From contig JAQVRQ010000010.1 in assembly GCA_028700975.1 (NCBI GenBank), positions 1 through 42,884 of the forward strand: 42,884 nucleotides of DNA. The letters run 5' to 3'. Shown here in pieces: positions 17,584 to 22,357 of the stretch (its first letter is position 1; each line of letters opens with the position of its first letter). Both the position numbers and the translations under genes were made by a program. The DNA comes from Bacteroidales bacterium. GTDB taxonomy: Bacteria; Bacteroidota; Bacteroidia; Bacteroidales; UBA932. Under the pieces are notes generated by a model. It saw only the letters and a program-made list of their open reading frames with translations. It did no database searches and had not been told where the DNA came from.

Positions 17584-18811
17584 TCTCATCAACTGCATCA
17601 AGTTTTTCCCAGGCGAAAAACTCTATCTCTTTTTTAACGGTTTTGCCACCCTCTATTAGCTCAATCTCTTTGGTAAAAGGATCTCTTCCCATATGACCAT
17701 AAGCAGCAGTCATCTCATAAATAGGATATTTAAGCTTTAAACGCTCAATTATTTTTGCTGGTCTTAGGTCAAATATTTCCTCAATTTTCACAGCAATTTC
17801 TCCATCGGTTAACCCGTTATTTGCAGTTCCATATGTGTTTACAAATACGCTTACAGGTCTGGCAACACCTATAGCGTAAGCAAGTTGAACCAGTACCTCT
17901 TTTGCTACTCCTGCAGCAACCAGATTTTTGGCAATATGTCTAGCAGCATATGCAGCAGACCTATCTACCTTACTCGGGTCTTTCCCTGAAAATGCGCCAC
18001 CACCGTGAGCTCCCTTTCCGCCATATGTATCTACAATGATTTTTCGTCCTGTCAGACCAGTATCTCCGTGAGGCCCTCCAATAACAAACTTGCCTGTTGG
18101 ATTGACGTGTAAGATGTAATCCCCTTTGAAAAGAGCTTGAGTAAATTCAGGAAGTCTCTTCACTAATCTGGGGATTAGAATATTTCTGACATCGTCACGG
18201 ATCTTTAATTGCATTGTTGTGTCATCGGCAAAATCGTCGTGCTGGGTAGATATAACAATTGTATGAATTCTTAAAGGATTGTTATTGTCATCGTACTCAA
18301 TTGTAAACTGAGATTTTGAATCCGGCCTCAAATAGGTCATCTCTTTACCCTCTCTTCTGATTTTAGCAAGTTCTAGCAGAGCTATATGAGATAATGTGAG
18401 TGGGAGTGGCATATACTCCTCCGTATCGGTACAGGCATATCCGAACATCATCCCCTGATCTCCGGCTCCTTGCTCTTCTGCTACCGCTACATCAACGCCT
18501 CGGTTTATATCTGCCGATTGTTCGTGTATTGCAGAGAGTATTCCGCAGGAATTACCATCAAACATATACTCGGCTTTTGTATAACCTATTTTATTAATTA
18601 CCCTTCTGGTTATTTGTTGGATATCTACATAGGCAGAGGATCTTACCTCTCCTCCTACAACTACAAGTCCCGTGCTTACGAATGTTTCGCAGGCAACCTT
18701 TGAGTTGCTATCCTGCCTGATGAATTCATCAAGAATTGCATCCGATATCTGATCCGCCACTTTGTCTGGATGCCCTTCAGATACCGATTCAGATGTAAAA
18801 AGATATGACAT
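17561..18811 (-). CDS. metK: S-adenosylmethionine synthetase
   Basis: A 416-residue enzyme that makes S-adenosylmethionine from methionine and ATP. The catalytic HPDK (His14), [11 protein letters not shown] (115-125) and the P-loop-like GGGAFSGKD (270-278) are intact. Length is normal for Bacteroidota. The coding region is preceded by a structured leader of about 150 bases with a SAM-riboswitch-like core, so feedback control by SAM is likely. The 3' end overlaps the convergent YhbP-like gene by 23 bases. Confidence 0.97.
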
Positions 18812-18960
18812 TTTCGTGAAAAATTAGTTAAACATATAGTTAAACACTTTCGGAGGGAAAGAGTTCTTGAATACACGAAATGGCAAATGGAAAAACGAAT
18901 GTTCAGAACATTTTAGCATTTTTTCGTGTGGTTGCAAGCAGTCAAATCTCTCCACCAGTA
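18811..18960 (-). promoter_or_regulatory. metK leader: SAM-II-like riboswitch core plus start-codon-sequestering repeat
   Basis: Read on the minus strand from 18960: a P1 stem GTGG/CCAC (3' arm 18931-18928), a loop with GATTTGAC (18948-18941) and TTGCA, then ATGCTAAAAT (18919-18910). These match the conserved GATTTAAC and GCTAAAA blocks of SAM-II RNAs. A 15-base palindrome follows (18912-18898). The octamer CACGAAAA occurs at 18928-18921 and again at 18818-18811, where its last A is the first base of the metK ATG. The complement TTTCGTG lies between them at 18880-18874. The central element can pair with only one copy at a time. The riboswitch class is recognised by eye, and the switching model is inference. 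Confidence 0.7.
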
Positions 18961-18968
18961 ATTTTGTG

Positions 18969-18976
18969 CAAAGATA
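18969..18976 (-). promoter_or_regulatory. metK -7 promoter box
   Basis: TATCTTTG followed by CA on the minus strand is identical to the str-operon -7 box. The base-19 upstream position reads TTT instead of TTG. Transcription would begin just ahead of the riboswitch core, which supports the leader assignment. Confidence 0.65.
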
Positions 18977-19030
18977 TATAAAATTTGTTAATAAAAAATG
19001 GTTACGATATTGTTAAATATTTCAAAATAA

Positions 19031-19063
19031 TTGTCATTTTTACTTATGATTTACCTAATTTTG
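19031..19063 (+). promoter_or_regulatory. Promoter of the TonB-dependent receptor
   Basis: TTG at 19031-19033 and TAATTTTG at 19056-19063 are separated by 22 bases, slightly longer than the 19 seen at the best promoters here. The ATG at 19097 follows after 33 bases. Confidence 0.6.
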
Positions 19064-19096
19064 CGACACAAAACCAAACAACTTTTATAAATACCT

Positions 19097-22000
19097 ATGA
19101 AACAAACACTTAAGAAATTTGCCATGGTGGCCGTGAGTTTGTTTGTTGCCTTTGCTGCTTTTGCACAGGTTACGACATCCTCTATGAGCGGAAGAATTAC
19201 CGAGGCCGACGGAAGAGCTGTAGTAGGAGCTACTGTAGTTGCCGTTCATACCCCTTCAGGCACTCAGTACTATTCAATTACTGACAATGCCGGTAACTAT
19301 CGCATACAGAATATGCGTGTTGGCGGTCCGTACGAAGCTGAGGTTACTTTCCTTGGTTTCGGTTCTGTAAAGAGTGGAAACATTGTTCTAAGACTTGGAG
19401 AAAACTATGTTCACGATGCAGTCCTCACTGAGGAGGCTGTTAGTTTGAGTGAAGTAGTTGTCTCTGCAGGGATTAACCCTATTCTTAACAGCGATAGAAC
19501 AGGTGCTTCTATGAACATTAGCACAAGAGAGATTAACACTCTCCCATCAATAAGCAGAAGTATTACAGACTTCACTAAGCTTACTCCTCAATCAAATGGA
19601 ACATCATTTGCAGGGCGTGATGGTCGTTTTAATACTGTAACTATTGACGGAGCTGCATTTAATAACAACTTTGGTCTCTCAAGCAACGCACTTCCTGGTG
19701 GTACAGCTCAGCCGGTGTCTCTGGATGCTATTGCTGAGGTATCTGTAAACATCGCTCCATATGATGTTCGTCAGTCTCAGTTTACCGGAGCTGCAATTAA
19801 CGCAGTTACAAAATCTGGTGATAACAACTGGAAGGCTTCTGTTTACACATATTTAAGGCCTAAATCATTCACCGGCGAGCTTGTTGGTGAGTCAGTTGTT
19901 AAAGGCGCTCGTGACAGAGAGTCTCAAATGTTCGGTTTTACAGTAGGAGGTCCAATTATTAAGAACAAACTATTCTTCTTTGTAAGTGGTGAGTATGAGA
20001 AAGAGTCTTCACCTAGTGGTGCTTGGGAGCCAAGTATCAATGGTGAGTCAAATCTAACTGAAAGAATCTCTCGTACAACAGTAGCAGACCTTGAGAGAGC
20101 TAAAAATCACCTTATGAACACTTACGGATATGATCCGGGTGAATATCAGAACTTCTCTGCTTTCCCTTCTCAGAACTATAAGATTCTTGCACGTGTTGAC
20201 TGGAATATTGCCAGAAACCACAAATTTGTAGCAAGATACAACAGATTGAGAAATACCTCAACTAACCTTACAAATGCAACTTCAGGTCCATCAGGCGTTC
20301 CAAGATCAAATTACGCACGTGTATCTGATAAATCCATTGCCTTCTCAAATGCCTTCTATGGTAATGAAAATGCTATTGATGCATTTGCTGCTGAATTGAA
20401 CAGTTCATTTGGTTCAAGGATTGCTAACAAACTCCTTGTATCTTATACTGCAACAACAGACCCAAGAAGAACATCAAATAGCGATCTTTTCCCATTCGTT
20501 GATATTTACAAGGATGGTGATCCATATATGTCATTTGGATACGAGCTATTTACATATAAGAATCAGGTGCTAAACAATACCTTCTCTGTTACAGACAACC
20601 TTTCAATTAACCTTGACAGACACACTTTAACAGCTGGTCTTTCTTATAGCAACATCTTCGTAAATAACTCATACATTCGTGAGGGAACAAGTTACTACAG
20701 ATATGCTTCATTAGACGACTTCATCAATAACTCTAAACCAACCGCATTTGGTGTTACTTACGGTTATGAAGGTCAGGACATTGAAGGAGTAAAGATGAGT
20801 TTTGGTATTGCTAGTGCATACATTCAGGATGAGTGGCAGATAGATCCTAAGTTTAAACTTACATATGGTATTCGTGCAGAACTTCCGCTTTATCACAACA
20901 AACTTGTTGACAACCCTGCAGTTGCAGCGCTTGACTTCAATGGTTATAAAATGAGACTCGGCGAATGGCCAAACAGCAAAGTTCAGATCAATCCAAGAGT
21001 TGGTTTTAACTGGGACGTAAAAGGAGACAGGAGCATTCAGCTTCGCGGAGGAACAGGTATCTTCTCAGGAGTGCTTCCATTTGTATGGTTTACAAACCAG
21101 CCTACTGCTTCCGGTACTGTTCAGAGTCCTGAGATTGGTCTTGTTGAAAACAGACTTCCTGCAGACTTTAGATTCAATCCGGATTTCAAAGCTCAGGTTG
21201 CAAAATACCCTTCACTTTTCCCTGCTACAATGAGTTCTACTCTTGCCAGAGGTGCTGCTCTTGCAGAGGTTAGTAAAGATTTCAAAATGCCTCAGATTTG
21301 GAGATCAAATCTTGCCGGAGATTTTGAACTTCCGGGCAATATGATCCTTACCGTTGAAGCTTTGTATTCAAAGGATATAAATGCAGTAGTTCAAAAGAAC
21401 AAGAATCTCCCTAATCCTCAAAATGTATTTATGGGAGTTGATAACCGTCCTCGTTGGACAAATCGTTTTGTAAATAGTGATGTATCCTCTGCAATGGTTC
21501 TTGAGAACTCAAGTAAAGGTTATCAGGCATTCTTTACCGCTCAACTTATAAAGAACTTTGAGTACGGATTCTCAGGTATGGTTGCTTACACCTATAACGT
21601 TTCTAAGGATGTAACATCAAACCCAGGCTCATCTGCATACTCTGCTTGGACAAGTAACTTAGATGCATTTGATCTTAACAACCCTGCACTTGGATACTCA
21701 AACTTCTCTGTTCCTCACAGAGTTGTAGGTTCCCTTTCATACAGAATTGAGTATGCAAGACACCTTGCAACCACCATCTCTGTATTCTACAATGGAGCGG
21801 CTTCAGGAAGATCATCAGTTGCTTATTCAAATGATATGAATGGTGACGGTGCTGTTTCAGACCTCATCTATATACCTAATCACAAAGACGAAATCACTTT
21901 CGTTGATGTAGTTGGAAAGATGACTGCGGCTCAGCAAGCAGACAAGTTTATGGAATATGTTAAGGGAGACAAATATCTTAGCAAGCATATGGGTGAGTAC

Positions 22001-22357
22001 GCCGGTAGATTTGGGGTTGTTAACCCTTGGAGAAATCGTTGGGATGTTAAAGTTCTACAGGATGTATTCGCTGATTTTGGAACAGATAGAAGATACACTC
22101 TTCAGGTTTCACTTGATATCGTTAACGCTGCTAACTTGCTTAGCAAGAACTGGGGCTTGTACAAGAAATCCGGTTTAGCTAACAACTACAATGTTATTAT
22201 GCCTTTAACATATAAGGGTGTTGACCATATGGGTCAGCCAACCTATACTCTTAATGCAAAGGATCTTGCAGACTTTGATGCTAAGAACCAGTTAATCAAT
22301 CAGGTGACAACAGGAAGTACTTGGGGAATGCAACTAGGTATTCGCCTTCTTTTCTAA
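19097..22357 (+). CDS. TonB-dependent outer-membrane receptor, Oar-like
   Basis: A 1086-residue outer-membrane protein. A signal peptide ends at AFAQ (residue 24), followed by a carboxypeptidase-regulatory-like domain (about 28-110, GRITEADGRAVVGATVV), a plug with EVVVSAG and a VTIDGAAFNNNFG region (about 120-250), and a large beta-barrel ending in an aromatic C-terminal residue (LGIRLLF). Overall it resembles Oar-type receptors rather than SusC, and no SusD partner follows. The imported compound is unknown. It is monocistronic, bounded by its own promoter and a strong terminator at 22381-22416, so it may be a well-expressed standalone outer-membrane protein. Confidence 0.9.
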   Translation: MKQTLKKFAMVAVSLFVAFAAFAQVTTSSMSGRITEADGRAVVGATVVAVHTPSGTQYYSITDNAGNYRIQNMRVGGPYEAEVTFLGFGSVKSGNIVLRLGENYVHDAVLTEEAVSLSEVVVSAGINPILNSDRTGASMNISTREINTLPSISRSITDFTKLTPQSNGTSFAGRDGRFNTVTIDGAAFNNNFGLSSNALPGGTAQPVSLDAIAEVSVNIAPYDVRQSQFTGAAINAVTKSGDNNWKASVYTYLRPKSFTGELVGESVVKGARDRESQMFGFTVGGPIIKNKLFFFVSGEYEKESSPSGAWEPSINGESNLTERISRTTVADLERAKNHLMNTYGYDPGEYQNFSAFPSQNYKILARVDWNIARNHKFVARYNRLRNTSTNLTNATSGPSGVPRSNYARVSDKSIAFSNAFYGNENAIDAFAAELNSSFGSRIANKLLVSYTATTDPRRTSNSDLFPFVDIYKDGDPYMSFGYELFTYKNQVLNNTFSVTDNLSINLDRHTLTAGLSYSNIFVNNSYIREGTSYYRYASLDDFINNSKPTAFGVTYGYEGQDIEGVKMSFGIASAYIQDEWQIDPKFKLTYGIRAELPLYHNKLVDNPAVAALDFNGYKMRLGEWPNSKVQINPRVGFNWDVKGDRSIQLRGGTGIFSGVLPFVWFTNQPTASGTVQSPEIGLVENRLPADFRFNPDFKAQVAKYPSLFPATMSSTLARGAALAEVSKDFKMPQIWRSNLAGDFELPGNMILTVEALYSKDINAVVQKNKNLPNPQNVFMGVDNRPRWTNRFVNSDVSSAMVLENSSKGYQAFFTAQLIKNFEYGFSGMVAYTYNVSKDVTSNPGSSAYSAWTSNLDAFDLNNPALGYSNFSVPHRVVGSLSYRIEYARHLATTISVFYNGAASGRSSVAYSNDMNGDGAVSDLIYIPNHKDEITFVDVVGKMTAAQQADKFMEYVKGDKYLSKHMGEYAGRFGVVNPWRNRWDVKVLQDVFADFGTDRRYTLQVSLDIVNAANLLSKNWGLYKKSGLANNYNVIMPLTYKGVDHMGQPTYTLNAKDLADFDAKNQLINQVTTGSTWGMQLGIRLLF

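Follow-up and report, generated by a model that had tools for sequence, protein, structure and literature searches.

Bacteroidetes lack Shine-Dalgarno sequences, as stated in an excerpt of PMC6847099, and in our judgement this makes the way in which riboswitches act there a real question. The case considered here is the metK leader of the window, i.e., the whole analysed stretch of 42,884 nucleotides from a Bacteroidales bacterium, in which a SAM-II aptamer and the metK ATG are separated by 100 nt.

Results and Discussion

A SAM-II aptamer upstream of metK

The gene downstream of the aptamer was named from a motif of 11 protein letters, which we take to identify metK. The best named MetK match by tblastn was that of HGW-Bacteroidetes-10, with 88% identity in the best segment. 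A 1086-aa ORF lies divergent from metK (window 19097-22357, plus strand) and is TonB-dependent outer membrane protein-like by eye.

The initial annotation had proposed a SAM-II-like aptamer at this place, and the proposal was borne out by RF01726 (SAM-II long loops), which scored 57.8 bits against a gathering score of 44. The second SAM model gave the opposite outcome: membership in RF00521 (SAM_alpha, the SAM-II first described in alpha-proteobacteria), which has a similar core, was rejected at 19.0 bits, below the gathering score of 36. The P1 helix and the conserved core (GTGG/CCAC, GATTTGACTG, TTGCAACC, and AATGCTAAA) aligned with the RF01726 consensus; after GCUAAA the consensus reads gCAGu, whereas the window reads AUGUU. 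For the P2 pseudoknot, a GAC/GUU pairing may be possible, as judged by eye only, the RF01726 model itself containing no pseudoknot. The model stops at the aptamer, so the downstream region lies outside it. RF01726 was present in 81 of 99 genomes of relatives. At the genus level it was found upstream of metK in 24 of 25 genomes, and the count for the family was 224 of 249, the own genome being included in all three figures.

The aptamer itself is already known. The SAM-II long-loop motif is listed for Bacteroidetes and marine samples in an excerpt of PMC2864571, and SAM-II was reported from the Bacteroides group in an excerpt of PMC1273637, which also places terminators between P2 and the gene in many members; terminators after SAM-II aptamers are already known as well. 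Among the matches listed for open-access PMC articles without their supplements, no title or opening of an abstract described an anti-aptamer in Bacteroidetes metK leaders, and the supplement of PMC2864571 may hold part of it.

A box of the type TAnnTTTG, which we take to be the Bacteroidetes promoter box, lies just 5' of the aptamer. Its position indicates that the aptamer should form the 5' end of the mRNA, with transcription expected to start a few bases 5' of P1. The box was found within 40 nt 5' of P1 in 168 of 196 leaders, compared with 7 of 196 shuffles.

Table 1. Positions of the features of the metK leader in the window
Feature	Position	Strand	Basis
metK, S-adenosylmethionine synthetase, 416 aa	17561..18811	-	ORF; relatives by tblastn
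Second octamer CACGAAAA at start codon	18811..18818	-	present here; 0/21 other genus leaders
Genus hairpin AAC-U-CUUUC ccucc GAAAG-U-GUU; 5' arm part of anti-aptamer	18843..18865	-	covariation, 14 leaders
Anti-aptamer region, predicted to pair with aptamer	18851..18890	-	duplex -21.1 kcal/mol, z -1.53, p 0.070 (window alone); population signal
Anti-aptamer parts TTTCGTGT and TCAAGAACTCTTTCC	18880-18873 and 18870-18856	-	predicted duplex
ACACGAAA, overlaps first octamer; pairs with 18880-18873 in SAM-free model	18922..18929	-	predicted fold, duplex
P1 3' arm CCAC	18928..18931	-	alignment to RF01726 model
Aptamer 5' strand GGTGGAGAGATTTGA, predicted anti-aptamer target	18942..18956	-	predicted duplexes
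P1 5' arm GTGG	18952..18955	-	alignment to RF01726 model
SAM-II aptamer RF01726	18903..18961	-	model match, E 1.1e-8
Promoter -7 box TATCTTTG, type TAnnTTTG	18969..18976	-	sequence

Complementarity between the downstream leader and the aptamer

Leaders were obtained from 141 of 173 loci for the first set (none from 7 of the first 93 loci or from 25 of 80 tblastn loci; L025, one of the 7, was added by hand later). These gave 128 distinct leaders, 119 of them with at least 33 nt after the aptamer. The held-out set comprised the 79 best-scoring new loci, which are not a random draw and come from a family already represented in part of the first set; it yielded 67 distinct leaders, several of them near copies, besides 6 loci without a leader and 6 duplicates, and 60 leaders were long enough. 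Since the leaders are related and some are nearly identical, the counts below are not independent.

Side-by-side comparison showed that many leaders contain stretches resembling the aptamer in reverse complement, such as GTCAAATCTTATCC in L142 against GGATAGATTTGAC, and this observation was then put to the test. Against dinucleotide shuffles, pairing of the downstream leader with its own aptamer 5' strand reached p<=0.01 in 38 and p<=0.05 in 59 of the 119 leaders, and the held-out leaders gave 22 and 35 of 60, respectively. The pooled analysis of the downstream leader against the aptamer showed a mean z of -1.91 (104/180 at p<=0.05), compared with -0.11 for the control of 65 nt upstream (12/180) and +0.82 for the control of metK codons 2-20 (0/180). 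In 97 of 119 leaders (shuffled control 64) and in 52 of 60 held-out leaders (control 35), the own aptamer was a better partner than the median obtained with aptamers taken from other leaders, and it ranked in the best 5% of swapped aptamers in 24 of 119 (control 6) and 8 of 60 (control 4), respectively. In a covariation test confined to the loops, own and swapped partners gave 6.71 and 6.73 paired bases, with 25 of 41 loop types positive.

In the genus, the whole aptamer showed a negative z with the downstream leader in all 23 leaders (mean -1.55; 6/23 at p<=0.05). For the window alone the signal was not significant, either with the aptamer 5' strand (p 0.17) or with the whole aptamer (p 0.07). 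Accordingly, a downstream segment that is complementary to the aptamer and also common to a second conserved fold was found at the population level, and not at significance for the window by itself.

The free leader fold pairs the aptamer also with metK codons, a pairing that the population control does not support. As a separate observation, metK codons 2-20 paired with the aptamer less than their shuffles did (152/180 at p>=0.5), as if pairing between the aptamer and the metK start were avoided; protein constraint may also bear on these z values.

A hairpin conserved in the genus

The motif AAC-N-stem-loop-stem-U-GUU was found in 22 of the 23 genus leaders, where it ends 21 to 33 nt 5' of the ATG. 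The window segment aligns with this hairpin, ends 31 nt 5' of the ATG, and has AACTCTTTC in common with the anti-aptamer. The pairing was assessed in an alignment of 14 of the 23 genus leaders, from which the near copies L009, L030, L035, L037, and L040 were left out, as were L014, L015, and L027 (arms fitting badly) and L029 (no motif), the omission of these last four favouring the hairpin. The results showed that 89.3% of cells were paired and 16 cells were changed on both sides, while slid versions reached at most 52.5% paired. Covariation score and cells paired exceeded those of all 500 shuffles, and RNAalifold returned the same hairpin pairs. Two of the five measures fell within the shuffles, namely the pairs changed on both sides (85/500 as high) and the further pair types (453/500). 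When the 3' arms were permuted among 19 hairpins, including those of L014, L015, and L027, the observed mean energy was reached in 0 of 2000 trials. Taken singly as local folds, none of the genus leader tails went beyond its shuffles (p 0.06 to 0.755). With the aptamer held, the pair probability of the hairpin was >0.6 in 13 of the 23 genus leaders and <=0.14 in the other 10, the window giving 0.69; in the anti-aptamer fold this probability is zero by construction.

From these features we infer that the metK leader is probably a SAM-II OFF switch in which an anti-aptamer does the switching. At low SAM, the anti-aptamer region would fold back on the aptamer, where TCAAGAACTCTTTCC would pair with the 5' strand GGTGGAGAGATTTGA, and CATTT..TTTCGTGT with ACACGAAAAAATG. 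With the aptamer held by SAM, the stretch would be freed and AACTCTTTC could fold into the local hairpin; the anti-aptamer fold and the hairpin draw on the same bases and are mutually exclusive. The hairpin would then lower MetK, most likely by transcription attenuation and, as a second choice, by translation control.

Terminator-like hairpins and the possible output of the proposed switch

Strict terminator-like hairpins were detected in 36 of the 60 held-out leaders (4/300 shuffles) and in 16 of 97 other leaders (10/485 shuffles), and in the genus in 2 of 23 leaders compared with 7 of 115 shuffles. The anti-aptamer overlapped the terminator-like 5' arm in 28 of the 36 held-out cases and 14 of the 16 others, where random placement gave 17.6 and 9.2, respectively; in many family mates such a hairpin has the anti-aptamer as its 5' arm, an example being TCAAATCTTCCTCCCCGAAGGTTTGATTTTTTTT in L064. 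A looser scan found candidates in 11 of 23 genus leaders and 15 of 69 shuffles, and the window was not among the 11. An intrinsic terminator in the window was rejected, as 18780-19100 contains no terminator-like site and the hairpin has no U-tract. The action of SAM-II aptamers on genes has received little study. An excerpt of PMC9373788 (2022) predicts that the S. meliloti metZ leader forms a terminator upon SAM binding, and its introduction states that SAM-II effects on gene expression had not yet been studied.

Attenuation is favoured here because the window hairpin sits where family mates have terminator-like hairpins. With no U-tract in the hairpin and 31 nt between its end and the ATG, attenuation and translation control are both candidate outputs, and the transcriptional one, taken alone, is put forward tentatively.

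Control of translation has the same architecture with a different output: the anti-aptamer helix or the upstream hairpin would alter ribosome access without pairing to the start codon. The lack of a U-tract in the window agrees with this, as does the report that low structure between -20 and +20 accompanies initiation in Flavobacterium johnsoniae (excerpt of PMC6847099); the end of the hairpin, however, falls outside that zone. Likewise, the openness of the start region was higher by >0.05 in the anti-aptamer state in 10 of the 23 genus leaders, but the other 13 had no such opening. We regard this form of translation control as somewhat unlikely.

It would also be conceivable that the aptamer regulates by another route, e.g., candidate Rho-dependent termination, the downstream complementarity of the window being incidental. 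The p values of the window alone and its missing U-tract are consistent with such a route, whereas the strong population signal and the alignment of the window segment with the genus hairpin argue against it, making it an unlikely explanation.

Possible variants and losses of the switch in relatives

In SAM-II leaders of the direct-occlusion kind (metX type), described in an excerpt of PMC10907184, the aptamer is of the same class as in the window. The window differs by its 100 nt between aptamer and ATG, and none of the 23 genus leaders is of the direct type. Outside the genus, 9 of 106 leaders and 7 of 67 had an aptamer that ended 0-11 nt 5' of the ATG (at least L010, L044, L052, L077, L103, L129, and L135, and, held out, at least L184, L204, L217, L221, L224, L229, and L243), a placement suggesting that the aptamer itself occludes the start.

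In one other genus of the family (L174, L186, L199, L203, L219, L220, L225, and L231), a hairpin CTAAAT..ATTTAGTT abuts the metK ATG just 3' of the anti-aptamer; the switch may take a translational form in these leaders.

The metK gene of L253 (genome G020, same genus) has no SAM-II aptamer: just 10 nt lie between TACTTTTG and the ATG, and the locus gave no Rfam match up to E 1. L253 represents a natural loss of the switch. The metK loci L255 (G025) and L256 (G044) gave no Rfam match, and metK was not found in genomes G032 and G049. In L254 (G040, same family), all that is left of the aptamer is its 5' half (AGTGGAAGACTTGACTGCTTGCAAC), directly 5' of the metK ATG.

Repeated octamers and the start codon

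The initial annotation had also pointed to two copies of CACGAAAA (18928-18921 and 18818-18811) and to TTTCGTG (18880-18874) on the minus strand, and had proposed competing pairings in which TTTCGTG masks the start codon. All three elements were located at these positions, and the ORF confirmed that the second octamer ends at 18811 on the A of the metK ATG. Rather than abutting the P1 3' arm, as had been claimed, the first octamer shares the last base of CCAC (18931-18928). Its complementarity to TTTCGTG is real, with the extent corrected to 8 bases, ACACGAAA (18929-18922) with TTTCGTGT (18880-18873).

When the 123-nt stretch was shuffled with its dinucleotides preserved, 29 of 5000 versions contained a repeated octamer whose two copies flank a 7-base complement, a figure that understates the chance of some such pattern because the pattern was chosen after being seen; in the same stretch the 8-base repeat alone arose in 385 of 2000 shuffles and the 7-base complement alone in 1282 of 2000. 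No CACGAAAA was found at the start codon in the 21 other distinct genus leaders or in L025, which was read separately. L039 and L040, the leaders most like that of the window, keep the linker octamer, with TTTCGCG in the middle, AAGACAATG or ACGACAATG at the start, and the aptamer-side pairing down to 5 bases. A triad of analogous layout but different letters is present in L007 (CACTTTA in the linker, ACTTTAA at -19 to -13, and TAAAGTG between the two); its start-side copy is missing in L008 and L009, which are near copies of L007.

The pairing energy between the middle element and the start region showed no signal, either in the 23 genus leaders (mean z -0.14; 2 at p<=0.05) or in 170 leaders (mean z -0.20; 19 at p<=0.05). 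Linker pairing likewise gave a mean z of +0.12 in the 23 genus leaders; the only one at p<=0.05 was the window itself, whose aptamer-side pairing lay above its shuffles (z -2.55, p 0.025). In the aptamer-held minimum fold of the window, the pairing of CATTTCGTG and CACGAAAATG takes in the start codon as well, and its pair probabilities reach 0.45; as a duplex, it is not beyond shuffles in the window (p 0.145) or in L040 (p 0.055).

That SAM binding frees TTTCGTG to cover CACGAAAATG and the start codon, thereby blocking translation, is quite improbable and was rejected as the main model because the octamers are not conserved: the window has all the elements and the aptamer-held fold just described, and L007 repeats the layout, but the genus does not keep it, no population pairing signal was found for it, and holding the aptamer lowered the openness of the start region (-12..+6) only slightly, to 0.51 from 0.57 on average over the 23 genus leaders. 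The 8 leaders of the other genus place a hairpin directly 5' of the ATG, so that some kind of start masking may be present within the family. What stands of the competing pairings is that a downstream element probably competes with the aptamer. The TTTCGTGT-ACACGAAA helix is nested within the predicted anti-aptamer fold, and this pairing is most likely a local piece of the switch formed by aptamer, anti-aptamer, and hairpin.

Implications for Bacteroidetes metK leaders

Beyond the anti-aptamer switch proposed for the window, a wider pattern may be suggested with some reserve. In Bacteroidetes SAM-II metK leaders, the anti-aptamer may be under selection while its partner is exchanged, being an intrinsic terminator, a start-codon hairpin, or the genus hairpin without a U-tract, with direct occlusion in other family mates. 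The leaders gathered here form a natural series of likely outputs, together with natural losses, for one aptamer and one gene. If the pattern is true, a single sensor would be combined with several interchangeable outputs inside one family, and the window hairpin would represent a new kind of SAM-II output.
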